Part shown: positions 37,145 to 54,760 of the stretch, one piece after another
Layout of the letters: the number at the start of each line of letters is the position of its first letter
Position numbering within the stretch: the stretch's first letter is position 1
Assembly: GCF_001579845.1 (NCBI RefSeq)
Contig: NZ_CP007440.1
Coordinates: 6,408,029 to 6,472,028 of the forward strand
Reading direction: 5' to 3'
Length of the DNA: 64,000 nt
DNA from: Rhodoplanes sp. Z2-YC6860
GTDB taxonomy: Bacteria > Pseudomonadota > Alphaproteobacteria > Rhizobiales > Xanthobacteraceae
Translations under genes and position numbers: made by a program
Notes under the pieces: model-generated
Database searches by the model: none
Seen by the model: the letters and a program-made list of their open reading frames with translations, nothing else
What the model was told of the DNA's origin: nothing

Positions 37145-38260
37145 TCAGGCCGACTTGAAGGCGGCCCAGGCCTCGATCCAGGCGCTCATCTCGTCCGGCC
37201 AGAACTCCGGCAGCAGAGCCGTCTTGCCGTCGGTCACGTCAAGGCCGAGGCGCTTTTGGTCTGCGGGCGAATACGAAGCCATGGCCTTGGACGAGATCGG
37301 GCCGTAGTTGGAGGCATTCGTCAAAGCCACGCTGTATTCCTCGGACAGCATCGTGTTGGCGACCTCCATCGCGAGAGCCGCCTTGCTCGAGTCCTTCGGA
37401 ATGAATGCTGCGTGAGTCCAGAACAGCAGGCCTTCCTTGGGCCGCGCGCTTGCCACCGGAATGCCCTCCCGCAGCAGCGCCGCACGCATCGGCATCCAGC
37501 CATACATCAGCGCGACTTCGCCGCTCGATATCAGGTTGACGGCTTCGCCGAATTTGGTCCAAAGCGCGCGGAAGTTCTTTTTCTTCGAAATGAGGAACTT
37601 CTTGACCTCGTTCAGGTCCGACAACGGCATCGTGGTCGGTTCCTTGTGACCCAGCGCGAGCGCCGCCGTCATGATGCACTGGTAGGCATCGTCGCGCAAC
37701 GCCACCCGGCCCGCGTAGCGATCGTCATACAGTATCGCCCACGACTTGGTTGCCGGATCGTCCTCCGGAATCTTGTCTGTGCGGAAGATCGCCGTGTCAT
37801 AGCCCCAATACACCGGGACCATGAACGTCTTTCCATCGCGCATCTGCCCCTGCATCTGCGTCTTGAAGAGATCGATCATGTCGCCCACGTTCGTCATCTT
37901 CGACATGTCGAAGGGGCGCATCCTCTCGTCGCCGGATTTGGCGCCCATCAACGGCACCTGGACGAAGTACATGTTGGTGATCATGAAATCGAACCGGGAC
38001 GTTCCGCCCGGCGCGAACAGCTTGGCGACCGAGTCGGTCGGCGACACGTAGGGGATCTGTTCGATTCTGATCCCTGTTTTGCGCTCAAGCAGTGCCTTGG
38101 CCGGGTCCGGCATCGCCACGCCGGGCGTGACCGCGACCAGCGAGCGGTCCTGCGCCCGCGACGCGCCGACCCGGTTGAGCAGCATGGCGCCAGCGCCGGA
38201 TTGCAACAGCGTGCGGCGCGACAGGCCGCGACGTGTGGAGAACTCGTGCTCGTCCGACAT
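37145..38260 (-). CDS. Orphan PotD-like periplasmic binding protein
   Basis: This is a 371-residue binding protein, paralogous to 28149-29237. The N-terminus carries a twin-arginine signal (GLSRRTLLQSGAGAM). SPTDSVAKLFAPGG, DPATKSWAILYDDRYAG and MYGWMPMRAALLREGIP match the paralogue closely. No permease or ATPase is next to it, so it may feed the importer at 27033-30945 or have become a sensor. Confidence 0.9.
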   Translation of the reverse strand: MSDEHEFSTRRGLSRRTLLQSGAGAMLLNRVGASRAQDRSLVAVTPGVAMPDPAKALLERKTGIRIEQIPYVSPTDSVAKLFAPGGTSRFDFMITNMYFVQVPLMGAKSGDERMRPFDMSKMTNVGDMIDLFKTQMQGQMRDGKTFMVPVYWGYDTAIFRTDKIPEDDPATKSWAILYDDRYAGRVALRDDAYQCIMTAALALGHKEPTTMPLSDLNEVKKFLISKKKNFRALWTKFGEAVNLISSGEVALMYGWMPMRAALLREGIPVASARPKEGLLFWTHAAFIPKDSSKAALAMEVANTMLSEEYSVALTNASNYGPISSKAMASYSPADQKRLGLDVTDGKTALLPEFWPDEMSAWIEAWAAFKSA

Positions 38261-38275
38261 TGCAAATCCCCCTTT

Positions 38276-39045
38276 TTACCGCCCACGCCAGACCGGCTTG
38301 CGCTTCTCGCGAAACGCCAGCGGCCCCTCGATCGCGTCTTCGCTCTGATACACAGGCTCGAAATCCGATCCGCGTTGCGGATGGCTTCCGAATTGCCGAC
38401 CTCGGTCGACATCGCCACCATCTCCTTGACGGCCCGCATGAAGAGCGGCGAGCCCGCCAGAATGTCGTTGGCCAGCGCTCGCGCCTTGGCCATGACGTCG
38501 CCCGGCGCAACGACGTGATTGACGAAACCGAGTTCATAGCCGCGCTGTGCCGAAATCGGGTTGGCGGTCATCAGCAGCTCGACCATGACCCTTTGCGGAA
38601 TCATGTGAATGAGCGGCGCCGCCCACGGCACCCCGCGCCCCACCCTCGCCTCGGTGATGGCGAACCGCGCGGTCTCGCTCGCGACGCACAGGTCGCACAT
38701 CTGCACCAGCCGCCAGCCGCCGGCATATGCCCCGCCGTTGACGGCGGCGATCACGGGCTTGCTCACCTTGATGTTCTGACCGATCACCGGGAGGAAATTC
38801 GGCGGCGGCACACCGAGTTTGGTTTCGGTGAACTCGATCAGATCGATGCCGGCGCAGAACGCCTTGTCGCCGGCGCCGGTGAGGATCGCGACGCGCAAAC
38901 GCGGATCGCTCTCGAAATTGCGCCAGGCCTCCCAGAGCCCTTCCCGCATCGCGGCGTTGAGAGCGTTGCGCTTGTCCGGGCGGTTCAACGTGATGACGAC
39001 GATCTCGCCTTCGATCTCGTAGAGCACCTCGTTTGCCATCGCCAT
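38276..39045 (-). pseudogene. Enoyl-CoA hydratase gene with a 1-base frameshift near its 3' end
   Basis: The reading frame is normal from MAMANEVLYEIEGE through KAFCAGIDLIEF, GGAYAGGWRLVQMCD and EARVGRGVPWAAP to NADRI. At 38361-38363 (AAA on the plus strand) one A is missing relative to the expected frame. Adding it restores a normal crotonase C-terminus (EGPLAFREKRKPVWRGR) ending at a TAA at 38276-38278. Without it the frame runs on about 100 residues through the next gene. This is either a recent inactivating deletion or a base-calling error in a homopolymer. Confidence 0.85.
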
Positions 39046-39071
39046 CACCACTTCCCAGGTTCTCGACGCGA

Positions 39072-40691
39072 TCAGGTGTCCAGCCAGACCTTGTCCATCT
39101 GCATGTTCACATAGATGTCGGGCTGCGCCACCCAGCCTTTCACCGCGCTCCAGAACGCCGCGCCGTAGCCGACCCAGGCCAGGTTGACGTGATAGTAGGT
39201 GCGCAGGAACGTCATCTGGAATTCTCGGATCGTCGCCGCCCGCTTCTTCGGATCGGATTCCCGGGACTGCTGCCGGTAAAGGCCGTCGATCGCATCGTCC
39301 TTCCAGTGGCCATAGTTCCGGCCACCGAAGCTCGTATAGCCTTCACCGAGGATCTGATCCGGTAAGGTTCCGCTCAGGCCGAGCGAGTGGATCAGCAGTT
39401 GGAAATCACCTTTGCTCTCTTGGGCGAAGAATGCGCCGGCGTCGCGAATGTCGACATTCACGTCGAGCCCGATGGTCTTGAGCTGGGCCGCGACATTGAT
39501 CGAAGCGTCACGGAATGCCGGCACGTCGCTGCGCGCCGGCATCACGATCTTGAAGCCCTTGGGCACCCCGGCCTGCTCCAGCAACGCCATCGCCTTCCGG
39601 CGATTGGCCGCGATATCTCCGCCAAGACCGGGCAGCGTGTCGTAACCGCCGAAGGTCTTCATATCCTCCGGGGAGAGGCTGTAGACGCTGTCGGGCGGCA
39701 TCAGACCCAGGCTGTGAAACGACGCACCGGCCAACGGGCCGACCGTCTTGATGAAGGCCTGGCGATCGATCGCCAAAGACAACGCCTCGCGCACACGAAC
39801 ATCATCGAAGGGTTTGACCTGAATGTTCGGAATGAGATTGATCGATGTCGGCGTCGGCCGCCGCAGCTCCGCCATTCCAGGAACACGACGTAGCGTTGCC
39901 GATACGGATTCGCTTGGAAGGAAATAGCAGGCGTCGATGCGCTTTCCCTGTAAGGCCACGCCGCGCTCGATCTCGCCCTTGATCGGAAAGAATTGGATCT
40001 TGTCGAGATAGGCCTTCGCGCCAAAATATTGATCGAACCGCGACAACTCATAGATCTGGCCGTCGATCGCCTGCGTCAAACGGAAAGGACCCGTGCCGAC
40101 GATCTGCCGTTTCATCCCGGTCCCTTGGACATCGAGAGGTTCGGCAACCTTCCTGCAATAAATGACGTTGAACGGATTGCTGACCAGGAACGGAAAATCG
40201 GCCTGCGGCTCCGTCAGGCGAATGACGACGGTGTGGGCATCCGGCGTCTCAATGTCGGCGATGTTGCCAAGCTGGCCTTTGCGCGGGCTGATGATGCCGC
40301 TTGGCGGCTTGCGGATGCGATTGAGGCTGTAGACCACATCGTCCGCCGTCATCGGCATCCCGTTGTGGAAGACCACACCGCGGCGAAGCCGGAAGGTGAC
40401 GATCTTGCCATCGGCCGAGACGTCCCATGTCTCGGCAAGGTCGGGCTGCAGCCGGTTGTAGTCCTGGCTGTCGATCCGCAACAGCGTCGAATAGCACGGC
40501 GCGCCGACGAATTGCGTGAGATACGTGACGGTCTGATGGACATCGAGGTCCGGCGGATCGCCGCCGTTGCTGACACGCAGCGTGCCGCCGCGTTTCGGCG
40601 TCTGCGCCTGGCCAACGCCTGGCGCCATCATGGTGGCTGTCAACGCGCCGCCGGCTTTGAGGACCGCACGCCTGTTCAGATGACTCGTCAT
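39072..40691 (-). CDS. Opp/Dpp-type substrate-binding protein, orphan
   Basis: This is a 539-residue periplasmic binding protein of family 5. The Tat signal LNRRAVLKAGGALTATMMAPGVGQAQ precedes the mature TPKRGGTLRVSNGGDPPDLDVHQ. ATG at 40691 is preferred over an upstream TTG because a GGAG lies at the right distance. It is very like 52348-53991 (about three quarters identical by eye) but has no permease genes beside it. It may share the permease of the other system. Confidence 0.92.
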   Translation of the reverse strand: MTSHLNRRAVLKAGGALTATMMAPGVGQAQTPKRGGTLRVSNGGDPPDLDVHQTVTYLTQFVGAPCYSTLLRIDSQDYNRLQPDLAETWDVSADGKIVTFRLRRGVVFHNGMPMTADDVVYSLNRIRKPPSGIISPRKGQLGNIADIETPDAHTVVIRLTEPQADFPFLVSNPFNVIYCRKVAEPLDVQGTGMKRQIVGTGPFRLTQAIDGQIYELSRFDQYFGAKAYLDKIQFFPIKGEIERGVALQGKRIDACYFLPSESVSATLRRVPGMAELRRPTPTSINLIPNIQVKPFDDVRVREALSLAIDRQAFIKTVGPLAGASFHSLGLMPPDSVYSLSPEDMKTFGGYDTLPGLGGDIAANRRKAMALLEQAGVPKGFKIVMPARSDVPAFRDASINVAAQLKTIGLDVNVDIRDAGAFFAQESKGDFQLLIHSLGLSGTLPDQILGEGYTSFGGRNYGHWKDDAIDGLYRQQSRESDPKKRAATIREFQMTFLRTYYHVNLAWVGYGAAFWSAVKGWVAQPDIYVNMQMDKVWLDT

Positions 40692-40774
40692 TGTCTGCAA
40701 TCTCCGCTGTGGATTGCCGCCATCATTCTGCTAGATCATGTGTCGAAACCCATGGCACCGAAACACCAAGCCAC

Positions 40775-41818
40775 ATGCCCAACACCATGAAAGCCATTGT
40801 GACCGAGGGGCACGGCGCTCCCGACGTTCTGGTCTATCGCGATATCGACGCGCCTCCCGCGCCAAAGGGGCATCAGGTTCTGGTTCGTGTGCGCGCCTGC
40901 GGCGTGTGCCGGCGTGACATTCTCGTCAGGCAAGGACCAGGCCACCGCGGCCTCGCGAGCCCGCTGGTGCTGGGTCACGAGATTGCAGGCGAGGTTGTGG
41001 CGCTTGGTCCTGAAGCGCGAGGCCTGCAAGTCGGACAGCGCGTGTGCTCCACGCAGCGTGAATTCGTGTGCGGCTGCTGCTCGATGTGCCGGACCGACCG
41101 CGAGACGCTGTGTCCGGACTTGCGCTTTCTCGGCCAGGAGGCTTCCGGCGGCTACGCCGAATACGTCCTGATCAACGACGACAACCTCGCTCGCTTGCCC
41201 GACAATGTTGACTTCGCTCATGGCGCAATCGTCGGCTGCCCAGTCGGAACGGCGTTCAATGCGGTGTGCGATACCGGCAAGGTGCAGCCGGGCGAACGCG
41301 TGCTCATCACCGGGGCCGGCGGACTCGGTATGCATGCCGTGCAGATTGCGCGCGCCGTCGGCGCCACCGTAATTGCCTCGACGCGGTCGCAGTCCAAGGT
41401 GCGCGCGCTCGAAGAGGCCGGCGCCCATACCGTCGTTGTCGCAGTTGACGGCAATTTTGCCAAAGGCGTGCGCGCCGCGACGGGCGGTCGCGGCGTCGAT
41501 GTCACGGTCGATACGGTTGGCGGTGCCGTTTTTCACGAGGTGCGGCGTTCGGTGGTCCCCGGCGGTCGCATCATCCTGGTCGGAGAAGTCACCGGAACGG
41601 CGGTCGAGTTGGACATGGCGCAGATTTACCGGCGCGGCCTCGAAATCCGCAGCGCGGTCAGCACATCGCGCCGGCAGCTCGAGATGGCGTTGCGGCTGGT
41701 GGCCTCCGGCGCGGTCCGCCCGCTGGTCGAGCGCACGATGCCGCTCGCCGAGGCCGCCGCTGCACACCGCCTGGTGGAGGACAACGCCGTTGTCGGCCGT
41801 GTTGTGCTGGTTCCGTAA
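40775..41818 (+). CDS. Zinc-dependent alcohol dehydrogenase (MDR family)
   Basis: This is a 347-residue medium-chain dehydrogenase. The catalytic zinc site is visible as RACGVCRRDIL and GHEIAGEV. The structural zinc loop reads CGCCSMCRTDRETLC. The NAD(P) site is TGAGGLGMHAVQIA. An ATG at 40787 (MKAIVTEGHG) is an equally good start. It is divergent from the binding protein with 83 bp between, and its stop is 2 bp from the convergent MaoC stop. Substrate unknown; an acyl- or aryl-alcohol is likely. Confidence 0.9.
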   Translation: MPNTMKAIVTEGHGAPDVLVYRDIDAPPAPKGHQVLVRVRACGVCRRDILVRQGPGHRGLASPLVLGHEIAGEVVALGPEARGLQVGQRVCSTQREFVCGCCSMCRTDRETLCPDLRFLGQEASGGYAEYVLINDDNLARLPDNVDFAHGAIVGCPVGTAFNAVCDTGKVQPGERVLITGAGGLGMHAVQIARAVGATVIASTRSQSKVRALEEAGAHTVVVAVDGNFAKGVRAATGGRGVDVTVDTVGGAVFHEVRRSVVPGGRIILVGEVTGTAVELDMAQIYRRGLEIRSAVSTSRRQLEMALRLVASGAVRPLVERTMPLAEAAAAHRLVEDNAVVGRVVLVP

Positions 41819-41820
41819 CC

Positions 41821-42261
41821 TCACGATCGGCACCCCAGCTCGATTGTCGCGGCTGCGCCGCGCACGACCTCGGTGCCGTCCGCCTTGCTGACCGAAAGCG
41901 TGCAGGTCACCAGTGCGCGATTGTTTTCGTTGGTCTTTCCCGACACGGCGCCGCGAAAAACGATGCTGTCGCCTGCGTAAACCGTGCCCCGCTGCCGGTA
42001 GCTGAGCTTCCGCACAAAGGCGTCACCGCCGCCCCATTGCATGAGTTGGCGCGCCATCAAGGCGCCGACCATCTGCCCGTCCATGAACGGCGCCGGCATT
42101 CCGAGCTTCGCCACGAATGCCGGATCGTAATGATAGCGATGGAAATCCCAGGTCGCGCCGGCATACATCACCAGCGACGTCAGCGTGACGTCGAAATCCA
42201 GCGGCGGCAGCGCTTCGCCAACCGCCACATCCTCATAACGTCGTGAGCGGAACGCGGTCAT
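41821..42261 (-). CDS. MaoC-like hydratase/dehydratase, subunit 2
   Basis: This is a 146-residue hotdog-fold protein. GATWDFHRYHYDPAFVAKLGMPAPFMDGQMVGALMARQ is the active-site stretch, with the Asp-His pair expected of the FAS1-like dehydratase / acyl hydratase group. It is the last gene of the long Region 8 operon and overlaps its partner by 4 bp. Two half-size MaoC proteins encoded together often form one heteromeric enoyl-CoA hydratase. Confidence 0.88.
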   Translation of the reverse strand: MTAFRSRRYEDVAVGEALPPLDFDVTLTSLVMYAGATWDFHRYHYDPAFVAKLGMPAPFMDGQMVGALMARQLMQWGGGDAFVRKLSYRQRGTVYAGDSIVFRGAVSGKTNENNRALVTCTLSVSKADGTEVVRGAAATIELGCRS

Positions 42262-42746
42262 GGCTTATGGATGTTGGTTTCGCGGTTCACGGCGAGCAAC
42301 TCGCCGCGCTGGTTGGTGTACCGCGCCTCGGACACGACGAAGATCATCGTGCCGGCGCTGCTGGTCTGCCGTTCGTATATATCCGCGAGACGCCACGTCA
42401 TCGTGATGCGATCGTCGGCGCGCACCGGCTGGTGAAATTCGTATTCGTTGCCGCCGCGAATGAACCGGCTGCTCGGCAGCGGCAGCGGCCAGTGATGGCC
42501 GATGTAGCCGTTTTCATCGGGCGGATTGCGGAAAAACTGGTTGGTTTCGCACACCAAGGTCGGCGGCGCGATGGTCGCGCCGTGGCTGGTGGTTCGCGCA
42601 TAGGCTCCGTCATGGAACAGCGGATTTTCGTCGCCAATCGCGAGGGCAAAGTAACGGATCGAGGCGGCGCCCAGCTCTTCGGGCGCGGTGTAGGACACCT
42701 CCCGTCCGATCCAGCTCTTGAGTTCGTCGGTCATGTACGAGCTCAT
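42258..42746 (-). CDS. MaoC-like hydratase/dehydratase, subunit 1
   Basis: This is a 162-residue hotdog-fold protein. FALAIGDENPLFHDGAYAR is the classic hydratase motif with Asp, Asn and His. HGATIAPPTLVCETNQFF follows, as in N-terminal halves of two-domain dehydratases. It overlaps the tandem RidA gene by 4 bp and the other MaoC gene by 4 bp. Enoyl-CoA hydration after the dehydrogenases is the likely step. Confidence 0.88.
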   Translation of the reverse strand: MSSYMTDELKSWIGREVSYTAPEELGAASIRYFALAIGDENPLFHDGAYARTTSHGATIAPPTLVCETNQFFRNPPDENGYIGHHWPLPLPSSRFIRGGNEYEFHQPVRADDRITMTWRLADIYERQTSSAGTMIFVVSEARYTNQRGELLAVNRETNIHKP

Positions 42747-43708
42747 GGCGACCTGACCGCGACAGCTTCAACGGCGATCAGAGCCCCGGCCGCCGGCAGC
42801 GCCTCGCAGACGACACCGGTCGCAGCCGGATACGGTGCCGCGAACACGTCGCGCCGGACGGCGGCTGTCTCGCGGTAGGCGCCGAGACCCTCGGGCGTGA
42901 CAAATTCGGTCGTCTTGACGACCGCGTCGAGATCGGCGCCCTTTGCGCTCAATTGGTCGCCGAGCCTGCCATAGATGTCGCGGCACTGAGCCGCGATGTC
43001 GCCCGCACGCGGGTCGCCCACGGCGCTCACGAACAGAACATCGGCGTGTTGATCGGACGCGGCACTCAGCTCGATCTGGACACCGCAACCGTCGTCGACG
43101 ACGCGCGGCATCGTGACCTGAATGATGGTGCCTCTCGCGTCATTGCCATCGGCCGCCACCGTGGGCGCCATCAACTCGATCGCTCGCAACACGTCCTGTC
43201 GCCGCAGACCGCGACGGATCAAAACATGGTCAGCACGCGACCACGCGCGCGGCGCATCGGACGCACTCACGGTCGGGAGATACTCGACCTTCGAACGACC
43301 ATCGCGGCTCGCGACCGCTTCGATCTCGATCAGCGCCTCGGGCCGCAGCAGGCTCTTGACGACAATGACACTGATGGCCGGCGCAACGCCCTTCACCAGA
43401 TCGGCGACAAGAGCCTTGAGTCGCGGCAGGTCCGGAATGGCGCGCGGCGTGACGTACTGAACGATGCGAACGATGTCGCGCAGGCCAAGTCCGCCGGCTT
43501 CCAGCGTCAGTCGCATCTTCTCGAAGATGACGCGTGCCTGGTCGACAAGATCGCCCTCGACGACCATGGCCTTACGGGCCGCATCGAAGCGTACCGCCGT
43601 GCTTCCCGACAGCCACACGCCATTGGCCGCGGCAATGCCCAGCGAGAACGTGAATCGCCGGTAATCGAAAAACGGATAATGTTCGGGCTCAAGCGCCACG
43701 CGCGACAT
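42743..43708 (-). CDS. Tandem RidA/YjgF-domain protein
   Basis: This is a 321-residue protein with two RidA-type domains, roughly residues 20-130 and 215-320. Domain 1 has VWLSGSTAVRFD, LEAGGLGLRDIVRIVQYVT and PAISVIVVKSLLRPEALIEIEAVA. Domain 2 has DVLFVSAVGDPRAGDIAAQ, KGADLDAVVKTTEFVTPEG and PAAGALIAVEAVAV. RidA proteins are usually single-domain trimers that hydrolyse enamines or act in ring-cleavage pathways. Its place among CoA enzymes suggests hydrolysis of a nitrogenous intermediate. Confidence 0.85.
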   Translation of the reverse strand: MSRVALEPEHYPFFDYRRFTFSLGIAAANGVWLSGSTAVRFDAARKAMVVEGDLVDQARVIFEKMRLTLEAGGLGLRDIVRIVQYVTPRAIPDLPRLKALVADLVKGVAPAISVIVVKSLLRPEALIEIEAVASRDGRSKVEYLPTVSASDAPRAWSRADHVLIRRGLRRQDVLRAIELMAPTVAADGNDARGTIIQVTMPRVVDDGCGVQIELSAASDQHADVLFVSAVGDPRAGDIAAQCRDIYGRLGDQLSAKGADLDAVVKTTEFVTPEGLGAYRETAAVRRDVFAAPYPAATGVVCEALPAAGALIAVEAVAVRSP

Positions 43709-43711
43709 CGG

Positions 43712-44527
43712 CTAGCGGCCCTCCCACTTCGGCGGTCGCTTCTCGGCGTAGGCCTTGAGGGCCTCGCCGTGGTCCTTGGTCGAACGCACCACCCGCTGCG
43801 CCCGCTCGGTGAAGCGGAGCGCCGTGTCGAGCTCCTGATAGAGCGACTCGGCCAGCGCCAGTTTGAACGCCTGCACGGTGATGGGCGGGCAATTGTCGAT
43901 GATCTCCCGCGCCAGTTCGCGACAGCGCGGCATGAGCTGGTCCGGCTCGACCACTTCACTGACGAAACCGATCTTTAGCGCGCCCTCGGCGTCGATGGTG
44001 CGTCCGGTCACGCCCCACTCGAAAGCCCGCGCGTAACCGATGATCTGCGGCATCAGCGCGAGGCTCGCGTCGTCCGGCACGATGCCGCGGCGGACGAACA
44101 CCCAGCCAAACCGCGAGGCCTTCGATGCAATCCGCATGTCGCAGCCGGCCGCGATGCCGAGACCCGAGCCGACCGCTGGACCGTTGATGGCCGCGATCGC
44201 GGGCTTCGACATGCGGCGAAGCCCTGTCACCACGCGGCGGATGTCCGCCTCTTGCGGGTAAAGCTCCTCGCGCAACGTCGGATCGGGCGGTTCGAGCGAG
44301 CGGCCTTGCGCCGTCATTCGTTTGATGTTGCCGCCCGAGCAGAATATCCGGCCCGAGCCGGTCAGGATCAGAACGCGCGCCTTCATGTCGACGTCGATCC
44401 GATCGAACTCGGCGATGAGTTCCTGATTCATGACCCAATTGACCGCGTTCTTCGCGTCCGGGTCATTGATGGTAACGACGACGATGCCGTCGTCGCCTTG
44501 TTCAGACGTAATGAACTGGTAGCTCAT
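43712..44527 (-). CDS. Enoyl-CoA hydratase/isomerase (crotonase) family protein
   Basis: This is a 271-residue crotonase-fold protein. The oxyanion-hole segments are IFCSGGNIKRM and NGPAVGSGLGIAAGCD. The two catalytic glutamates of classical hydratases are not seen: the second site reads WVFVRRGIVPDDASL. It may act as an isomerase, hydrolase or C-C lyase. The start at 44527 overlaps the dehydrogenase gene by 26 bp. It ends in EKRPPKWEGR, a common tail of the family. Confidence 0.88.
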   Translation of the reverse strand: MSYQFITSEQGDDGIVVVTINDPDAKNAVNWVMNQELIAEFDRIDVDMKARVLILTGSGRIFCSGGNIKRMTAQGRSLEPPDPTLREELYPQEADIRRVVTGLRRMSKPAIAAINGPAVGSGLGIAAGCDMRIASKASRFGWVFVRRGIVPDDASLALMPQIIGYARAFEWGVTGRTIDAEGALKIGFVSEVVEPDQLMPRCRELAREIIDNCPPITVQAFKLALAESLYQELDTALRFTERAQRVVRSTKDHGEALKAYAEKRPPKWEGR

Positions 44528-45680
44528 GGGAGCTTTCCCCTCGGAAACGGCCAAGATTTTCGCGAAGCATCCGCGCCAGCGCGCGCCGGTGATGACCGGC
44601 ATCGCCATAGGCCGCCGCGGCCGCGATCGCACGGTGGTAGTAGAGTTCGAGCGGATAATCGCGATAGAAGCCGATGGCACCGTGGATCTGGTGCGCGGTG
44701 CGCGTCACGGCCTGTATCGCCTCGCTGGTTTTGGCTTTGGCGATGAAGGTTTCGCGGTCGCCCGCCATCCCGTCACCGAGCGCTGCCGCGGCCTGCCAGG
44801 CCAGCAGGCGGCTGACCTCAAGGTCGCGATACATCTCGGCACAATGATGGTGCACGCCCTGGAAGCTGCCGATCGGCCGATCGAACTGCACGCGGGTCTT
44901 GGCATAGTTCAATGTGAGATCGAGCGAGGCCTGACCGATCCCGACAAGCTCGGCCGACTTCATCGCCGCGCCGCGCAGCAACAGCCGCGCGACGTGCGAC
45001 CACGCGCCACCCACCTCGCCGACGACAGCGTCGGCATCGACATTGACGTCGTCAAAAACGACCTCCCACAGCGCCTCGCCGCCCGCCGCCTGCAGGCGAC
45101 GGATTTTCAAGCCCGGGGTGTCGCGCGGCACCACCAGCAAGGTGAGGTCAGTTTCGTTGTCGCCGGTCCGGCCCAGGCAGATGATGGCTTCGGCCGCGCC
45201 GGCGTCGCGGACGAACAGTTTGGTGCCATTGATCGTGAAACCATTTCCGGCCGGCGTGATGCGGGTGCGGATGCCGGCGGGCGAAAGACCGCCGCTCGGC
45301 TCGGCGATCGCCGTTGTGAGAATGGCTTCGCCCGACGCGATGCGGGGAAGATAGCTGTCGCGTTGCGCCGGCGATCCGGCGTCGAGTAGCAGTAAGCCCG
45401 CCTCGACCACCGTGGAATAGATCGGACTCGGCACTGCGCCTTGACCCAGCGCCTCGACGATCAGCGCAAGCTCCAGCAATCCGGTTCCGGCACCGCCGTA
45501 TTCCTCCGGAAAGACGGCGCCGGCCCAGCCCATCTCCGCCATCTTCCGCCACACCTTGGCATCAAAGCCGTGCTCGCTGCCTTCGAGCGCACGGATGGCA
45601 TCCGCCGTCATGGCCTCTTGCGCGAAAGCCATCGCGGTCTCGCGCAGCATCTTCTGATCGTCGTCGATCGTGATGTCCAT
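44502..45680 (-). CDS. Acyl-CoA dehydrogenase, subunit/copy 2
   Basis: This is a 392-residue acyl-CoA dehydrogenase family protein. It has AIAEPSGGLSPAGIRT in the flavin region and AHQIHGAIGFYRDYPLELYYHRA near the C-terminus. The residue aligned with the usual catalytic glutamate is aspartate (RDYPLE). I chose MDITIDDDQKMLRETA at 45680. The paired dehydrogenase lies 13 bp upstream. Such pairs form heterotetramers in steroid side-chain degradation. Confidence 0.9.
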   Translation of the reverse strand: MDITIDDDQKMLRETAMAFAQEAMTADAIRALEGSEHGFDAKVWRKMAEMGWAGAVFPEEYGGAGTGLLELALIVEALGQGAVPSPIYSTVVEAGLLLLDAGSPAQRDSYLPRIASGEAILTTAIAEPSGGLSPAGIRTRITPAGNGFTINGTKLFVRDAGAAEAIICLGRTGDNETDLTLLVVPRDTPGLKIRRLQAAGGEALWEVVFDDVNVDADAVVGEVGGAWSHVARLLLRGAAMKSAELVGIGQASLDLTLNYAKTRVQFDRPIGSFQGVHHHCAEMYRDLEVSRLLAWQAAAALGDGMAGDRETFIAKAKTSEAIQAVTRTAHQIHGAIGFYRDYPLELYYHRAIAAAAAYGDAGHHRRALARMLRENLGRFRGESSHELPVHYV

Positions 45681-45693
45681 GCCGATCCCCGCC

Positions 45694-46866
45694 CTAGCGT
45701 GGCAAACCGAGGCCGCGCGTGGCGACGACGTTGCGGGTGATGTCGAAGCCACCGGCCGCGAACTGGAAATAGAGATGGTCCCGGTATTCGACCTCCACCT
45801 CGCCTTCGAGCGGCGCCCATGGCGATCCGTGGCGAAGCGGCGCAAACGGCCCGAGCAGTTCCAGCCCGGACACGTCGAGCCGCCGCGCCGTCTCGCGCTT
45901 CACCAGCAGGGCGAGCGACGTCTCGTGCTGCGGCCGCAGGCCCTTGGCATGGAGGCAGGCCAGCCAATAGCTCATGACCTTGGCGCCTTCGGCCTCGATC
46001 GCAAGCCGCACCAGCTCGTCCTGCACCAGCGGATCGTCGATCAGCCGCCCGCCCTCGCGCTCCTTCGTGCACCAGGCCAGCAGACGGTCGAACTGATAGC
46101 TGACCAGTCCCGGGCTTGAGAGCGCAGCGCGCTCGAAGTCGATCGCCCCCATCACGGTCTTCCAGCCTTGATGGACCTCGCCGACCAGCATCGAACGCGG
46201 CACCCGCACCTGATCGAAATGCACCGCATGGTGAGTCCACCCGGCGAGCGTCGGATATTTGGTGATGGTGATGCCCGGGCTCTTCATGTCGATGATGAAC
46301 ATGGAAAGCCCGCGATGCTTCGACGAGGCCGAGTCGCTACGCGTCAGCACCCAGCCGTAGTCGGCCATGTGCGCGTCGCTGGAAAACGCTTTCTGCCCCG
46401 TGACGACGAAATGGTCGCCGTCTTCGACCGCACGCACCTTGACGTTGGCGAGATCGGACCCTGCCTCGGGCTCGCTGTAACCGACGAACCAGGACAGCTC
46501 GCCGCGGATGATCCGCGGCAGGAACTCGGCCTTCTGCGCCTCGGAGCCAAGCGCCATAAGCGCGTTCGGAATGTAGGTGATCGCGCGGTCGAGACCCGGC
46601 GCGCGGTGATACTCCATCTCGTCCCAGAAGATCGCCTGATAGACACGGCTGCGGCCGCCACCACCGTATTCCTTCGGCCAGCCCATGCCGATATAGCCGG
46701 CTGCGCCGAGCTTGCGGCGGAACGCCTTGGTGAACTCGGCGGTCCACATGCCCTGCTCGGCGAGATCGCGATGGGCCTCCCACACCGCCGGCGTGATCTC
46801 GCGCCGAAGGAATGCGCGCACCTCGTCGCGAAACGCCGCCTCTTCCGCCGTGAATTTCAAATCCAT
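45694..46866 (-). CDS. Acyl-CoA dehydrogenase, subunit/copy 1
   Basis: This is a 390-residue acyl-CoA dehydrogenase family protein with the typical start DLKFTAEEAAFRDEVRAFLR. GYSEPEAGSDLANVKVRA contacts the flavin, and FDITRNVVATRGLGLPR is the C-terminal helix. It is unlike its neighbour at 44502 in sequence, so the two look like distinct subunits rather than a recent duplication. Confidence 0.92.
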   Translation of the reverse strand: MDLKFTAEEAAFRDEVRAFLRREITPAVWEAHRDLAEQGMWTAEFTKAFRRKLGAAGYIGMGWPKEYGGGGRSRVYQAIFWDEMEYHRAPGLDRAITYIPNALMALGSEAQKAEFLPRIIRGELSWFVGYSEPEAGSDLANVKVRAVEDGDHFVVTGQKAFSSDAHMADYGWVLTRSDSASSKHRGLSMFIIDMKSPGITITKYPTLAGWTHHAVHFDQVRVPRSMLVGEVHQGWKTVMGAIDFERAALSSPGLVSYQFDRLLAWCTKEREGGRLIDDPLVQDELVRLAIEAEGAKVMSYWLACLHAKGLRPQHETSLALLVKRETARRLDVSGLELLGPFAPLRHGSPWAPLEGEVEVEYRDHLYFQFAAGGFDITRNVVATRGLGLPR

Positions 46867-46883
46867 CGGGTGTCTCGTTCGCT

Positions 46884-48107
46884 CTAGGACAGGACGCCGC
46901 CGGCTTCGAGGCGCTGATACTCGGCTTCGTCAATACCGAGCAGTCCGGTGAGAATGTCGTGGGTGTGTTCGCCGAGCAGCGGCGCGTGGTTGTATTGCAC
47001 GCCGAGACTGTCCATCTGCCACGGCAGACCGAGCTGCCGGTGCGGACCGGCGGTCGGATGATCGATCGTGATCACGCTGCCATGGGCTTGAAGCTGCGGA
47101 TCGTCGATCAGCTGATCGCAGCGCAGCACCGGCCCTGCCGGCACGCCGGCCGCCTGGAGCTTGTCCACTGCCTCGTTCACGCCGATCTGCCGCGTCCAGC
47201 TTTCGACGGCCGCGTCGAGAATGCCGACATGCGTCACACGGCCTTCCGCGCTGGCGAACCGCGGGTCGCCGAGCCATTCGGCATGTCCCGACGCACGACA
47301 CAACAAACGCCATTCCTCGTCGTTGTCGACGCTGATTGCGATCCAGGTGTCTGCATCGCGGCACGGATAGATGCCGTAGGGCGCCTTGAGCTTGTCACGG
47401 TTGCCCATCCGTTTCGGGTCGGCGTCGTTCAAGGTGACGTCGATGACGGCCTCAGGGATCAGCGTCATCATCGCCTCGTACATTGCCAGATCGATGAACT
47501 GGCCCTGCCCTGTCTGGTTGCGGTGATGCAGCGCCGCCATGATAGCGAACATGCCGTAAGTGCCGCTCAGCGGATCGGGCAGCACGCCGCCGAGGATCCT
47601 CGGCTCGCCATCGAGATAACCCGTCACATCGGCAACGCCGCTGAACAGATTCACCGCGCTGTGCAGGCCTCTGGCATGCTTCATCGGGCCGGAACGGCCG
47701 AACGCTCCGCACGACACCATGACGATGCCGGGATTGAGCTTGCCGATGACGTCGTAGCCGAGGCCGAGCTTCTCCAGGACGCCGGTCGAGAAATTGTCGA
47801 CCATCACGTCGACCTTGCCGGCCAGACGCCGAACGATATCGCGGCCGGCCGCGGTGGTCATATCGAGCGTGCAGCTCTTCTTCGCGGCGCAAATCTGGTT
47901 GAAGTAGCCGCTGCCATCCGGATTGCCCTCGAGACCTGGCTTGAACGGCGGGGCCGTGCGCGACGTCATCCGCCGGCGCGACTCCACGACGATCACCTCA
48001 GCGCCCAGCCAGGCGAGCCACAGCGCGCAGAACGGCATGGCGATGAACTGCCCGAGATCGAGCACGCGAACGCCGTCGAGCGGCATCGGCCGGGACGTTG
48101 CACTCAT
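46884..48107 (-). CDS. Type III CoA-transferase, subunit A
   Basis: This is a 407-residue CaiB/BaiF-family protein. LDGVRVLDLGQFIAMPFCALWLAWLGAEVIVVES opens the fold, and VDVMVDNFSTGVLEKLGLGYD and GAFGRSGPMK follow. The aspartate at the expected active site is visible in GGVLPDPLSGTYG. It overlaps the second CoA-transferase by 4 bp. It probably activates the imported acid together with that partner. Confidence 0.92.
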   Translation of the reverse strand: MSATSRPMPLDGVRVLDLGQFIAMPFCALWLAWLGAEVIVVESRRRMTSRTAPPFKPGLEGNPDGSGYFNQICAAKKSCTLDMTTAAGRDIVRRLAGKVDVMVDNFSTGVLEKLGLGYDVIGKLNPGIVMVSCGAFGRSGPMKHARGLHSAVNLFSGVADVTGYLDGEPRILGGVLPDPLSGTYGMFAIMAALHHRNQTGQGQFIDLAMYEAMMTLIPEAVIDVTLNDADPKRMGNRDKLKAPYGIYPCRDADTWIAISVDNDEEWRLLCRASGHAEWLGDPRFASAEGRVTHVGILDAAVESWTRQIGVNEAVDKLQAAGVPAGPVLRCDQLIDDPQLQAHGSVITIDHPTAGPHRQLGLPWQMDSLGVQYNHAPLLGEHTHDILTGLLGIDEAEYQRLEAGGVLS

Positions 48108-49315
48108 GACACGGCCCTCTCCGGCTCATCGAGCAGCATGGCGTTATGCTCGCCCAATCGCGGCGCGGGGAGCCGCATCGTCCACGGCGTCGCCCGCATG
48201 GTGAACGGCGCGCCGGGCATCTTGGCGCGACGATGGCCGATTTCGATATCGACCACGCTGTTGCGCGCCGCGACCTGATCGCACTGGACGAGCTTTCGCA
48301 CCGGATAGAATTGGAAGATCGGAAGCTGGGTCTGGTTGGCGAGGCCGTAAAGTTCCTCGCCCGACAGCGTCATCGTCCAGTCGATCAACCGCATGCGCAG
48401 CTCGATCCAGTTTTCCGTGCGCGCCGGGCTGGTGGCGAACTGCGGCGTGCCGGCCCACGCCGGACTGCCCATGGCCTCGACCAGACGCTCCCAATGCACG
48501 TCCATCGGAGCCGGGATCGTGACGTAGCCGTCCTTGCACGGCAGATAGAAGTTCGGCATGCGGCCGATCGTTGTCGGATTGAGCAGGCGATTGTACGTGC
48601 CGCCCCAATAGGAATACGTGGTGACGTCGCGATGCTGCATGGACGCTACCGCGGCCTGCTGGCTCACATCCAGATGACATCCCTGCTGTGTCTTGGCACG
48701 CCCGAGAAGCGCCGTCAGGCTCGCGAGGCCGGCGCACAGACCAGCGATGGTCTCGGCGGTGAAGGATGATGGATGCAGCGGCGGCTCGTGCTCAAGATCG
48801 TTCGCGGCGTCGGGCATCCCGGGCGTGCTGTAGGCAATGCCGCCCATTGCATAGGTCACCAGTTCGTCGCCGCGCCGGTTGGCCCAAGGCCCTTTCATTC
48901 CAAACGGTGTGATCGTGGTGACGATCAATCGCGGATATCGGGCCCGGAGTTCCGCCGGCATGAGGCCGGCCGCGCGCAGGCGCTCGATCGGAAGATTGGT
49001 GACGAAGATGTCGGCCGGCGCCAGAAGACGGTCCAGCGCCTTTCGTCCATCAGCGCTCGCGCAATCGAGGACGACACCCCGCTTGTTGATGTTGAGATAG
49101 AGAAACAGCCCGCTTGCCTCGGGATCGGGCCGGCCATCGGGGAACGGTCCGCGACGCCGGCTGGAATCGCCGTCAGGTCCCTCCACCTTGATGACCTCGG
49201 CGCCGAAGTCGCCAAGCAGCTTGGCAGCGTACGGTCCCGCCGTGCCGTCGCCGAGCTCGACGACAGAAAGCCCGGCAAGCGGCCCGACAGCGGGAATTTG
49301 CGATGCAACGTTCAT
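48104..49315 (-). CDS. Type III CoA-transferase, subunit B
   Basis: This is a 403-residue CaiB/BaiF-family protein: LAGLSVVELGDGTAGPYAAKLLGDFGAEVIKVEG, then DIFVTNLPIERLRAAG and TPFGMKGPWANR. By eye the active-site aspartate position reads SFTAETIAG, that is glutamate. The pair at 46884-49315 therefore looks like one catalytic and one supporting subunit, as in benzylsuccinate CoA-transferase BbsEF. Confidence 0.9.
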   Translation of the reverse strand: MNVASQIPAVGPLAGLSVVELGDGTAGPYAAKLLGDFGAEVIKVEGPDGDSSRRRGPFPDGRPDPEASGLFLYLNINKRGVVLDCASADGRKALDRLLAPADIFVTNLPIERLRAAGLMPAELRARYPRLIVTTITPFGMKGPWANRRGDELVTYAMGGIAYSTPGMPDAANDLEHEPPLHPSSFTAETIAGLCAGLASLTALLGRAKTQQGCHLDVSQQAAVASMQHRDVTTYSYWGGTYNRLLNPTTIGRMPNFYLPCKDGYVTIPAPMDVHWERLVEAMGSPAWAGTPQFATSPARTENWIELRMRLIDWTMTLSGEELYGLANQTQLPIFQFYPVRKLVQCDQVAARNSVVDIEIGHRRAKMPGAPFTMRATPWTMRLPAPRLGEHNAMLLDEPERAVS

Positions 49316-49318
49316 GAA

Positions 49319-50431
49319 CTAGCTCCGCATCGCGGCCAGGCGATCCAGCCCCGCTTCGGCTTCCGTCACCATCGACATCAGAATGTCGCGCGCCGGACGC
49401 TTGCGCGTGAGCATGCCGGCAATCTGTCCGGCGGGATTGTTGATCAGTTCATGACGGCCGGCAGCCTCTGCTGCCGCGATGAGGTCATCCATCAACACGC
49501 CCTGGAGCGGCATCGGCAGCGATCGCAGACCCGATTCATCCCAGGCCTTGATGACGTCGTTGCGGTAGTCGCGCGCCGTCTTGCCCGTGTAGGCGCGCGT
49601 GATGACGAAGTCCTCGGTGCTGCCGCAGATGATCTCCTGCTGGTGCGCCGGATAGAGGTGAGATTCCTCGGCGAGCAGGAATGCCGTGCCGACCCAGGCG
49701 CCCACCGCTCCGAGCGCCAGCGCCGCGAGAAGCGTGCGGCCGTCTGCGATCGCGCCGGCAGCGATGACCGGCACAGGGCTGACGGCGTCAACGACCATTG
49801 GGATGAGCGGAAAATTCGCGACGGTCCCGGTGTGACCGCCGGCCTCGTAACCCTGCGCGATCACATAATCCACGCCGGCGGCCACCTGCCGCTTGGCGTT
49901 GCGGACGTTGCCGACCAGGCCCAGCACCTTCATGCCGGCCTGATGCGCCAGCGGCACCACCCAGGCCGGATCGCCGAGGCCCGCGGCGAACACCGCGATC
50001 CGCTCCTCCAGACAGACGTCGACCTGACGACGGATGAAGTCCGCCGACATCACGCCGGCCGACGGCATGACCGGCTTGAGCCCGAACTTCTCGACCAGCG
50101 AACGAGAGAAAGCCATGTGCTGAGGATGATCGCGCTCGATCCGCGCTCGCATTTCGGCACGGTCCGGCGTCGCCGCCGCCATGCTGGCCGGGAGCAGCAA
50201 ATCCACGCCGAACGGCCGACCGGTGAGATTGCGGACCTTGCGGATGCGGCGGCGGACCTCATCGCCGTCGAGCCAGGAGCAACCGAGAATTCCCATGCCG
50301 CCGGCTTCACACACCGCCGCCACGAGTTCGGGCGGCGTGGCATGTCCTTTGACGCCCATGCCGGCGAGAAAGATCGGATACTCGATCTTCAGATCGTCAC
50401 AGAGACTTGTATGCAGCACGCTTTTGCTCAT
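49319..50431 (-). CDS. Nitronate monooxygenase-like FMN protein
   Basis: This is a 370-residue TIM-barrel flavoprotein of the 2-nitropropane dioxygenase family. YPIFLAGMGVKGHATPPELVAAVCEAGGMGILG and the FMN/active-site YEAGGHTGTVANF with its histidine are clear, and PVPVIAAGAIADGRTL contacts the phosphate. Family members oxidise nitronates or act as enoyl-reductase or dehydrogenase-like enzymes. Its position directly after the permeases suggests early processing of the imported compound. Confidence 0.9.
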   Translation of the reverse strand: MSKSVLHTSLCDDLKIEYPIFLAGMGVKGHATPPELVAAVCEAGGMGILGCSWLDGDEVRRRIRKVRNLTGRPFGVDLLLPASMAAATPDRAEMRARIERDHPQHMAFSRSLVEKFGLKPVMPSAGVMSADFIRRQVDVCLEERIAVFAAGLGDPAWVVPLAHQAGMKVLGLVGNVRNAKRQVAAGVDYVIAQGYEAGGHTGTVANFPLIPMVVDAVSPVPVIAAGAIADGRTLLAALALGAVGAWVGTAFLLAEESHLYPAHQQEIICGSTEDFVITRAYTGKTARDYRNDVIKAWDESGLRSLPMPLQGVLMDDLIAAAEAAGRHELINNPAGQIAGMLTRKRPARDILMSMVTEAEAGLDRLAAMRS

Positions 50432-50446
50432 TTGCCGTCTCGACGT

Positions 50447-51364
50447 TCACGGAAAGTCGCGTTGCAGTTTGGGATCGAGCAGATCGCGAATGGCGTCACC
50501 GAGCAGGTTCGACGCCAGAACCATCAGGAAGATCGCAAGCCCCGGGAAAATAACGATCCAGGGCGCGACCAGCGCCAACGATGTGGCGGAACCGGACATC
50601 ATCAAGCCCCACGAGGCTTCCGGCTCTTGGATGCCGGCGCCGAGATAATCGAGCGCCGCCTCCTGCACGACCGCCAGACCGAGATAGGCCGTGGCGATGA
50701 TCAGCAACGGCGCCATGGTGTTCGGCAGGATGTGGCGGAGCATGATGCGCGTGCTGCTGCACCCGGTGGCGCGGGCTGCCTCGATGAACATGGTGGCCTT
50801 GAGCACGAGCACACTGGAGCGCGCGATGCGCGAGGCGCGAGGAATGATCGGCATCGCCAGTGCGATGATCACATTGTGCAACGCCGGCCCGAGCACCGCC
50901 GCCATCGCCAGCGCGAGCAGCAACATGGGGAATGCCAGCATCGCATCCATGACGCGTTGCGCCACGGCGTCGGTCCAGCCGCCGCGATAGCCCGCGACGA
51001 TGCCGATGGCAGCGCCGACCACGACACCGAGCAGGCTGGCGCCGAGCCCAACCAGCAGCGATACGCGGGCTCCGTAAATCAAGCGGGACAGGATATCGCG
51101 GCCGAATGCGTCGGTGCCGAGCCAGTAGGTCGAACTCGGCGGGCTGTAGAGCGCCGCCGTGTCGCCATCGACCGGATCGTACGGCGCGAGGTACGGCGCG
51201 CCCACGGCCAGCACGACGATCACGATCAGCACCACGGCGCCGAACACACCGAGCGGATGCCGCCGGCTGATGCGACCCAACGTCAGCAGCCGGCTCTCGT
51301 GCCGCAGCTCCGCCGGGATTGCGCGAGCGCCTTCCATGAGTTGTGGGGAGCTCACCGCACTCAT
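50447..51364 (-). CDS. ABC transporter permease, DppC/OppC type
   Basis: This is a 305-residue inner-membrane permease. YWLGTDAFGRDILSRLIYGARVSLLVG is diagnostic, with the coupling loop EAARATGCSSTRIMLRHILPNTMAPLL. The start at 51364 overlaps the DppB-type stop (ATGA). The end LGDAIRDLLDPKLQRDFP is the usual C-terminus. Confidence 0.94.
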   Translation of the reverse strand: MSAVSSPQLMEGARAIPAELRHESRLLTLGRISRRHPLGVFGAVVLIVIVVLAVGAPYLAPYDPVDGDTAALYSPPSSTYWLGTDAFGRDILSRLIYGARVSLLVGLGASLLGVVVGAAIGIVAGYRGGWTDAVAQRVMDAMLAFPMLLLALAMAAVLGPALHNVIIALAMPIIPRASRIARSSVLVLKATMFIEAARATGCSSTRIMLRHILPNTMAPLLIIATAYLGLAVVQEAALDYLGAGIQEPEASWGLMMSGSATSLALVAPWIVIFPGLAIFLMVLASNLLGDAIRDLLDPKLQRDFP

Positions 51365-52323
51365 TGTGCCACCCGCACCCGGGTGCGCGGATCGAGCCAC
51401 CCGTAAATCAGGTCGACGGTGAGATTGCCGAGCACGACGATCCCGGCCAGGACAAGCACGATGCCTTGGGCTGCCGGATAGTCGCGGTTGAGGATCGACG
51501 CCACCACGTACTGGCCGAGGCCCGGCACGCTGAACACCGCTTCGGTGATGATCAAACCGCCGAACAACGCCGAGAATTCAAAACCGATCAGCGTGACGAC
51601 CGGCAGAAGCCCATTGCTCAGCCCATGACGGACCACGACATTCCATTCGGACAGGCCCTTGGCGCGCGCGGTCCGGATATAATCCTCGCCCAGCACTTCG
51701 AGCATGATCGATCGCGTCATGCGCGCGACCAGCGCCAGTTGACGCAACCCCACCGCCAGCGCCGGCCAGAACAGTTGCGCCAGACTCTTGCCGGGGCTGA
51801 CCCAGAACGGTTCCCAGAACAGCGGCGCGCTCCACTGAAAGAGCGCAACGAGCCCCAGGATCAGGATCAGTCCGATCCAGAACGACGGCGCCGCAAGACC
51901 GCCGATGCTCACGGCCTGCAACGTGCGATCAATCCAGGTCCCCGCATAACGGGCCGACAGCACGCCGGCCGGAATGCCGAGGCACACCGCGATCAGGGTT
52001 GCCATCACGACGATCTGCGCCGTGTACGGAAACCGTCGCGCGATATCCTGCGCAACCGGATTGCCGGTCCGCAGCGACGTTCCAAGATCGAACGTGGCGA
52101 CGTGGCCGGCCCAGTCGCCGAACTGGACGACCAGCGGCCGGTCGAGGCCCATCTTGCTGCGGACCTGGGCGAGTTCTTCCTCCGACACCACGCCGGCGCC
52201 GGCACCGCTCAGCATCACGGCGGCATCGCCCGGGATCACGCGCATGATAACGAACACCATCACTGCGACCCCGAACAGGGTCACGACACCGGTCGCCAGG
52301 CGCTGGACGACAAAACTAAACAT
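51361..52323 (-). CDS. ABC transporter permease, DppB/OppB type
   Basis: This is a 320-residue inner-membrane permease. VQRLATGVVTLFGVAVMVFVIMRVIPGD opens it, and MTRSIMLEVLGEDYIRTARAKGLSEWNVVVRHGLSNGLLP is the coupling loop. It has LGQYVVASILNRDYPAAQG near the end. It lies 24 bp after the binding protein gene and needs the OppD/OppF-type ATPases at 54891-56878. Confidence 0.94.
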   Translation of the reverse strand: MFSFVVQRLATGVVTLFGVAVMVFVIMRVIPGDAAVMLSGAGAGVVSEEELAQVRSKMGLDRPLVVQFGDWAGHVATFDLGTSLRTGNPVAQDIARRFPYTAQIVVMATLIAVCLGIPAGVLSARYAGTWIDRTLQAVSIGGLAAPSFWIGLILILGLVALFQWSAPLFWEPFWVSPGKSLAQLFWPALAVGLRQLALVARMTRSIMLEVLGEDYIRTARAKGLSEWNVVVRHGLSNGLLPVVTLIGFEFSALFGGLIITEAVFSVPGLGQYVVASILNRDYPAAQGIVLVLAGIVVLGNLTVDLIYGWLDPRTRVRVAQ

Positions 52324-52347
52324 TCACCCTCTTGCGCGTCGCGCCGC

Positions 52348-53991
52348 TCAGGCGTCGAGCCAGACCTTGTCCATCTGCATGTTGGCGTAGATATCGGGTA
52401 GCGCGATCCAGCCTTTGACGGAATTGGAATAGGCCGCGCCGTAGCCGACCCAGGCCAGGTTGACCTGGTAGTAGGTTTTCAGGAATTCGAGCTGGAACTT
52501 CTTGATCAGGGCGGCGCGCTTCTGCGGATCTGGCTCCCGGGACTGCTCACGGAAAAGATTGTCGAGCGCGTCGTCTTTCCAGTTGCCGTAGTTGCGGCCG
52601 CCGTAGCTGGTGTAGCCCTCGCCGAAGATCTGGTCCGGCACCGAGCCGCCCATCGCGACCGAATGCGCCACGAGTTGGAAGTCGCCCTTGGTTTCCATCG
52701 AGTAGAACGATCCGGTGTCGCGGACGTCCACCGTGGCGTCGAGTCCGACGGTCTTGAGTTGAGCGGCGACATTGATGGCGGAATCGCGGAATGCCGGAAG
52801 ATCGCCGCGTGTGATGATGACGATCTTGAAGCCCCTGGGCACGCCGGCCTGCTCCAGCAACGCCATCGCCTTTTGCCGGTTGGCCGCGACATTGCCGCCG
52901 AGGCCCGGCAATGTATCGTAACCGCCGAACTTCTTGATCTCGTCTACGCTCAAACTGTACGGGCTGTTTGGCGGCATCAGGCCAATGCTGTGGTAGAACG
53001 CGCCGGTGAGCGGCCCGACGGTCTTGATGAAGGCGTCGCGGTCCATCGCCAGCGACAGCGCCTCGCGGACCCGGATGTCATCGAACGGCTTGCGCTGCAC
53101 GTTCGGGATCAGATTGACGAATGTCGGCGTCGGTCTGCGCAATTCGGTGATGCCGGGAACCTTGCGCAGCGTCGCCAGCACCGACTCGTTCGGAAAGAAG
53201 AAACCAGCATCGAGCCGCTTGCCTTGCAACGCCGCGCCGCGTTCGACCTCGCCCTTGATCGGGAAGAACTGGATCTTGTCGAGGTAGGCCGGCTCGCCGA
53301 AATATTTATCGAACCGCGTCAGCTCGTAGATCTGCCCGTCGATCGCCTGCGACAGACGGAACGGCCCGGTGCCCACGATCTGCCGCTTCATCCCCACGCC
53401 TTGCGCATCGAGCGGTTCGCAGACCTTCCGCGGCACGATCACGTTGTAGGGATTGCTCACCATGAACAGGAAATCGGGCTGCGGCTCCGAAAGGTGAATC
53501 ACCACCGTCGCCGGATCGCTCGCTTCCATCGAAGCGATGTTGCCGAGCAGTCCCTTGCGCGGGCTGATGATGCCGCGCGGCGGCTTGCGGATGCGATCGA
53601 GGCTGAAGATGACGTCGTCGGCCGTCAGCGGCGTTCCATCGTGGAATACGACGTTGCGGTGGAGATGGAAGGTGACCGTCTTGCCGTCGGCCGAGATGTC
53701 CCATTTCTCGGCGAGGTCCGCGACGAGACGGTTGTAGTCGTGCGGATCGGCGCGCAGCAGCGTCGAGTAACACGGCGAGCCTACGAACTGGGTCAAGTAT
53801 GTCGCCGACTGATGGACGTCGAAATCGGGAGGATCGCCGCCGTTGCTGACGCGGAGTGTGCCGCCGCGTTTTGGCGTTTGCGCCGCAGCCCAGCGGGGTG
53901 TCGCCGCGAGAGCGGCAACTGCTCCTCCCGCCGTCTTGAGGGCGTCACGCCGGCTGATGGCACCGCATTCCAAAGGACGCCGTATCCGCAT
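52348..53991 (-). CDS. Opp/Dpp-type substrate-binding protein
   Basis: This is a 547-residue periplasmic protein of family 5. The Tat signal ISRRDALKTAGGAVAALAA is followed by the mature TPKRGGTLRVSNGGDPPDFDVHQ. GGGGAG six bases before the ATG at 53991 supports that start over an upstream TTG. It follows the TetR gene after 28 bp and leads the catabolic operon. In this family many ligands are not peptides; a nitrogenous or bulky acid would fit the enzymes downstream. Confidence 0.94.
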   Translation of the reverse strand: MRIRRPLECGAISRRDALKTAGGAVAALAATPRWAAAQTPKRGGTLRVSNGGDPPDFDVHQSATYLTQFVGSPCYSTLLRADPHDYNRLVADLAEKWDISADGKTVTFHLHRNVVFHDGTPLTADDVIFSLDRIRKPPRGIISPRKGLLGNIASMEASDPATVVIHLSEPQPDFLFMVSNPYNVIVPRKVCEPLDAQGVGMKRQIVGTGPFRLSQAIDGQIYELTRFDKYFGEPAYLDKIQFFPIKGEVERGAALQGKRLDAGFFFPNESVLATLRKVPGITELRRPTPTFVNLIPNVQRKPFDDIRVREALSLAMDRDAFIKTVGPLTGAFYHSIGLMPPNSPYSLSVDEIKKFGGYDTLPGLGGNVAANRQKAMALLEQAGVPRGFKIVIITRGDLPAFRDSAINVAAQLKTVGLDATVDVRDTGSFYSMETKGDFQLVAHSVAMGGSVPDQIFGEGYTSYGGRNYGNWKDDALDNLFREQSREPDPQKRAALIKKFQLEFLKTYYQVNLAWVGYGAAYSNSVKGWIALPDIYANMQMDKVWLDA

Positions 53992-54019
53992 CGCCAACTC
54001 CCCTCAGTCGCGAGGTCCC

Positions 54020-54760
54020 CTAGGTTATGAGCATCCGATGATCGTTGTTCGTGCCGTTGTGACGTCGCCCGCGACGGAGCGGTGCGGCCCGCGCAGCGCC
54101 GTCACGGCGCAGCCCTCGCAAGAAGTATTCCACCATGTCGTCCGCGATCTCGTCGGCGTGAAGCGGACCGTTCGGCCGATACCACTTCGGGATCCAGTTG
54201 ATCGCACCGAGGATGGCGAAGCCGGCCAGCTTGACGTTGTCGCACTCGAACTCGCCCGCCCGGACGCCCTCCTCGATCAAGCCGCGCACGCCGCGCTCCA
54301 GCTGGTCGCGCTTGGCGACGTACTGCTTCCGCTGCTCGGGCCAGAAGCTTTCCAGATCGGTCTGCAGGATGCTGCCGAAGCCGTCATCCAGCACGCCGTG
54401 AATGTGACCGGTGAGCAGGATTCGCAGCCGCCCGGCTGGCGTGCCTCCGGCATTCGCCGCCTGCTTCAAGGCGCGCAGGCTGACGTCCACGCAACGCATG
54501 TGGCACTGGTACAAAATGTCCTGCTTGTCCTTGAAGTAGTAATACAAATTGCCCTTGGTCATCCCAAGTTCGTTGGCGATGTCCTGAATGGTCAGCGACG
54601 ACAATCCTGAATTCCGCAACACGTTGCCGACGCTCCGCAGGATCGCTTCCCGGCGCTGTCCCTTCAGTCCGGGCGCGCCGTTCCAGCGCACCGGCTTCTT
54701 TTTGGCCCCGCGCCCCGAACCGCCTTTCGCCCTGGAAGGTCGAGCCTTGCCCTGTGCCAT
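54020..54760 (-). CDS. TetR family transcriptional regulator
   Basis: This is a 246-residue repressor. The N-terminus is a basic, probably flexible tail of about 30 residues. The helix-turn-helix is LTIQDIANELGMTKGNLYYYFKDKQDIL. The ligand domain ends with a second basic tail. It is the first gene of the leftward unit, 27 bp behind the site at 54782-54807. Acyl-CoA-responsive TetR proteins commonly control such operons, so a CoA ester is the likely inducer. Confidence 0.92.
   Translation of the reverse strand: MAQGKARPSRAKGGSGRGAKKKPVRWNGAPGLKGQRREAILRSVGNVLRNSGLSSLTIQDIANELGMTKGNLYYYFKDKQDILYQCHMRCVDVSLRALKQAANAGGTPAGRLRILLTGHIHGVLDDGFGSILQTDLESFWPEQRKQYVAKRDQLERGVRGLIEEGVRAGEFECDNVKLAGFAILGAINWIPKWYRPNGPLHADEIADDMVEYFLRGLRRDGAARAAPLRRGRRHNGTNNDHRMLIT

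Follow-up and report, generated by a model that had tools for sequence, protein, structure and literature searches.

PMC12007338 deals with frameshift pseudogenes and with indels that fragment genes in bacterial assemblies. It reports that long-read errors are predominantly short indels, that most indel errors in one bacterial assembly tested were false deletions, and that deletion errors were seen chiefly behind long runs and, at small incidence, at bases that are not repeated. The locus described here lies in a 64,000-nucleotide stretch of DNA from Rhodoplanes sp. Z2-YC6860 (the window); it resembles these cases in that a single-base deletion interrupts an otherwise conserved gene, and differs from them in its short run of three bases. 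The gene belongs to the crotonase family, for which PMC13126182 names Glu144 and Glu164 as the catalytic residues of rat ECH. Compared with solved hydratases, the gene product keeps the counterpart of Glu164 (E132) and has an arginine at the position taken as that of Glu144; its as-read form carries other residues in place of the native C-terminal end.

An ECH_1 (crotonase) protein is encoded on the minus strand of the window, starting with the ATG at 39045 and running in frame to about 38364. The as-read protein scored 155.7 bits (E 1.8e-45) with the Pfam ECH_1 profile (PF00378), whose cut-off is 27, and the match covered residues 11-242 as read and most of the profile. The in-frame part of the gene (38364 to 39045, residues 1 to about 227) is 84% identical to the relatives L037/L084 and 81% to L085. 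As read, the ORF ends at 37981 and gives 354 aa, or 356 aa when the upstream alternative start GTG at 39051 is used. The native-frame stop codon at 38278-38276 lies out of frame, together with the C-terminal tail (38276 to 38360, minus strand), which in the native frame reads EPVYQSEDAIEGPLAFREKRKPVWRGR. This tail still spells the crotonase family C-terminus, which is EKRKP-x-W-x-G in close relatives and varied in more distant ones; by eye, its last 22 residues are those of L085. The site of the lesion, AAA at 38361-38363 on the plus strand and TTT on the coding strand, is located 28 codons ahead of the native stop. In the as-read product 126 foreign residues (37981 to 38360, minus strand) stand in place of 28 native ones, and the length is 354 instead of 256 residues, a net gain of 98.

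Comparison with relatives placed the missing base more precisely. A scan of genome contigs yielded 26 loci, of which 13 were translated together with three loci from a genus search; these 16 include the same gene twice in two cases, since L010 and L037 are apparently one gene and likewise L012 and L031. A single frame ran through to a family-like C-terminus in 15 of the 16, and the remaining one (L038) ended with its contig. Among 391 genomes of the family, six matched at 1e-60, including that of the window itself; the gene was intact in four of the other five (L084, L085, L086, and L088) and cut by the contig end in L087, where the match covers bases 3-473 of the contig. In DNA alignments with L084, L085, L086, L088, L039, and L040 the window alone was gapped, by one base, between GAT and TTCGAG of the coding strand (38361-38364), and this was its sole gap. 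All six aligned relatives carry one extra base at the site and have one open frame of 245-256 aa. The genes of L037, a metagenome-assembled genome of Rhodoplanes piscinae, and of L085, from the same family, are intact orthologues with one base more and a single frame of about 255 aa. A second strain of the species was searched for and none was found.

The site was also visible to a three-periodic coding model trained, without homology, on ORFs of this genome (the window plus 20 stretches). The model changed frame between 38354 and 38370. The as-read frame scored +23.1, +9.8, and +14.3 in successive segments down to 38364 (the last being 38364-38579), where it was the only frame with a positive score, and dropped past the site to -11.1 (38276-38360) and -78.5 (37981-38275). 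The frame of the native tail scored +4.2 past the site and then +13.5, the latter mostly owed to the downstream gene. The drop of the as-read score is thus the stronger sign, and the +4.2 of the short tail is weak by itself. The DNA alignments and the frame change in the coding statistics together bear out the first-pass annotation, which had described a single-base frameshift at AAA 38361-38363. Its further statements, namely that the gene is otherwise intact, that the native frame ends in REKRKPVWRGR with a stop at 38276, and that about 100 foreign residues are gained, agree with the relatives and coding scores, the native-frame translation and the lengths given above, respectively. It had proposed a comparison with close strains as a check; the comparison made here, with relatives, gave one more base in 6/6 of those aligned.

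Frameshifts were surveyed in 464 kb, composed of the window and twenty 20-kb stretches spaced evenly over the genome (400 kb). The first detector, which recovered 22 of 60 simulated deletions, flagged one of 94 same-strand frame changes, and this was the lesion site. The second detector, which picked up 179 of 300 simulated indels, listed three candidates and did not list the lesion site, presumably because the short tail scores below its threshold. All three candidates were rejected as frameshifts, each being an overlap of two genes from different Pfam families: GSDH followed by SGL at position 17733 of L073, a DyP peroxidase gene followed by an encapsulin gene at position 17218 of L074, and an acyl-CoA dehydrogenase gene followed by an ECH_1 gene at 44543 of the window. 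The DyP-type peroxidase gene overlapping the encapsulin gene (L074, 16383-18339) is a known kind of gene pair. With these two detectors of limited sensitivity the 464 kb yielded no further frameshift. Frameshifts thus do not seem frequent in the assembly, while a low error rate would still be compatible with this result.

The identity of the lost base is less clear than its place. The first-pass annotation had assigned the loss to an A of the AAA run, and this was not established. Slips favour runs, and the window has a run of three bases here and no run of at least four A or T anywhere within 38276-39045. The codon of the relatives at the site is ATA (L037/L084), ATC (L012/L086 and L088) or CTG (L085, L039, and L040). 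In 213 coding ORFs of the genome sample isoleucine was encoded 4269 times by ATC, 512 times by ATT and 58 times by ATA (4269/4839 for ATC). Since the relatives vary at this codon and the genome prefers ATC, the lost base need not be a member of the run and, judged from codon usage, may well lie outside it. An account of the lesion as a slip in the run was therefore not established by the sequence alone.

The first-pass annotation had named the product an enoyl-CoA hydratase, of which the family assignment (ECH_1) stands and the hydratase function does not follow. The position of the second catalytic glutamate is occupied by E132 in the window and is invariant in 11/11 alignment rows. The position of the first is R112 in the window and is glutamate in none of the 11 rows: three rows (window, L037, L012) have arginine, and the other eight have leucine, threonine or valine. 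The correspondence of this position to Glu144 was drawn through 3trr and 3rsi, both of which have glutamate there, rat ECH itself lying outside the alignment. The chain 3trr_A was the best solved chain by sequence when the L037 orthologue was the query. Among the best 25 of 69 NCBIfam equivalog matches of the as-read protein none exceeded its cut-off, and the best, EchA19, reached 186 bits against 400. On these residues, the crotonase group to which the gene belongs may not be a hydratase. For the as-read protein, a fold predicted from an 11-row alignment (mean pLDDT 66.9, pTM 0.61) had a confident core, with pLDDT below 50 at residues 1-3 and 247-353.

The crotonase gene is followed by a solute-binding-protein gene on the same strand (37145 to 38260, Pfam SBP_bac_8, E 4.6e-17), which starts 15 nt past the native stop. 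The as-read frame crosses this start at 38260, so that the foreign extension overlaps the beginning of the next gene in a different frame. Directly upstream of the crotonase gene lies an SBP_bac_5 gene (39072 to 40700, minus strand, E 2.8e-71), and by eye L085 resembles the window in having an SBP_bac_5-like ORF at the same place. Along 231 bases close to the 3' ends, the DNA of this gene is 78% identical to that of another SBP_bac_5 gene (52348-53997). Both belong to a catabolic and uptake cluster at 37145-54760, which contains two class III CoA-transferases, two acyl-CoA dehydrogenases, two ECH_1 genes (the second at 43712-44680), a MaoC/FAS1_DH pair, a nitronate monooxygenase-like gene, two permeases, the two SBP_bac_5 genes and a TetR gene. 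The MaoC/FAS1_DH pair, the alcohol dehydrogenase and the crotonase genes are also found together in L037. The genome, a single contig of 8,193,889 bases, gave 462 first-look candidates in a search for TctC (PF03401), at least 150 of them above the cut-off, in keeping with the 434 TctC genes that PMC5994714 describes for the 8.2-Mb genome of Rhodoplanes sp. Z2-YC6860. No close paralogue that might make the lesion tolerable was found: at E 1e-60 the only match in the genome was the gene itself, and three other loci of this genome (L004, L005, and L006) showed a protein identity of 28.6-30.5%.

Selection was compared before and after the site. Measured against L037, the 226 codons of the head gave a dN/dS of 0.085 and the 26 codons of the tail, taken in the native frame, one of 0.075, both below the values of the three neighbouring genes shared with L037, which were 0.230 for MaoC, 0.139 for FAS1_DH, and 0.126 for the alcohol dehydrogenase. 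Because these are simple Nei-Gojobori estimates at high dS (0.7-1.3) and the tail is short, only the comparison of head, tail and neighbours counts. Amino-acid changes found only in the window and only in L037 numbered 13 and 9, respectively, with L012 as outgroup, and 10 and 13 with L039, so that there is no clear excess on the branch of the window. A sign of relaxed selection after the lesion was looked for in these dN/dS values and not seen, and a very recent lesion would look alike. Equal purifying selection on head and tail indicates that the lesion is either very young or not present in the living cell.

The gene is an ordinary member of the crotonase superfamily in a soil alphaproteobacterium. 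We lean slightly towards a very recent one-base deletion that is real in the organism, a reading which we consider somewhat probable. That the consensus dropped a base, the gene being intact in the organism, is a serious possibility that falls short of being probable: selection shows no relaxation on either side of the site, the gene is intact in the relatives examined, and everything observed is equally expected from an assembly or sequencing error. What speaks against such an error is that the run at the site has only three bases, compared with the long runs described in PMC12007338, and that neither the 400 kb sampled evenly nor the rest of the window contained a further frameshift.

Two readings in which the shifted gene is functional fared much worse. 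A programmed ribosomal frameshift or transcriptional slippage, yielding the full native protein, would account for a native tail that is conserved one base out of frame. The rule for slippery heptamers is X XXY YYZ, and the zero-frame heptamer here, inspected by eye, is G ATT TCG; three consecutive T make a short run for polymerase slippage. Since the six aligned relatives have one open frame, without any conserved shift site, and no slippery heptamer is seen at the site, this reading is highly unlikely. An extended protein under selection as a functional new form is just as improbable, although its 126 codons stay open. When coding ORFs of this genome were shifted 28 codons before their ends, 10.5% of 5000 draws stayed open for at least 126 codons, so that an extension of such length is unremarkable; moreover, the extension scores strongly negative as coding sequence, is predicted to be mostly disordered, and sits over the start of another gene. 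The locus is to be read as an ordinary recent gene defect or a sequencing error and not as a new mechanism.

If the recent deletion is present in the organism, one base would have been lost 28 codons before the native stop. The protein, if made, would have the core fold, lack the native C-terminal end and carry about 126 residues predicted to be mostly disordered, and its activity would probably be lost or much reduced. Ribosomes would miss the stop that lies 15 nt ahead of the solute-binding-protein gene and would run across its start, which may lower translation of that gene. It is conceivable, if rather unlikely, that a real lesion has become fixed and that removal of the stop uncoupled or repressed this downstream gene, in which case two steps of the uptake and breakdown of CoA esters would be silenced by one base. 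For the biology of the organism the significance is little, as the C-terminus of one gene has been lost or wrongly recorded; in metabolic models of Rhodoplanes sp. Z2-YC6860 this gene should be checked before it is counted as intact.
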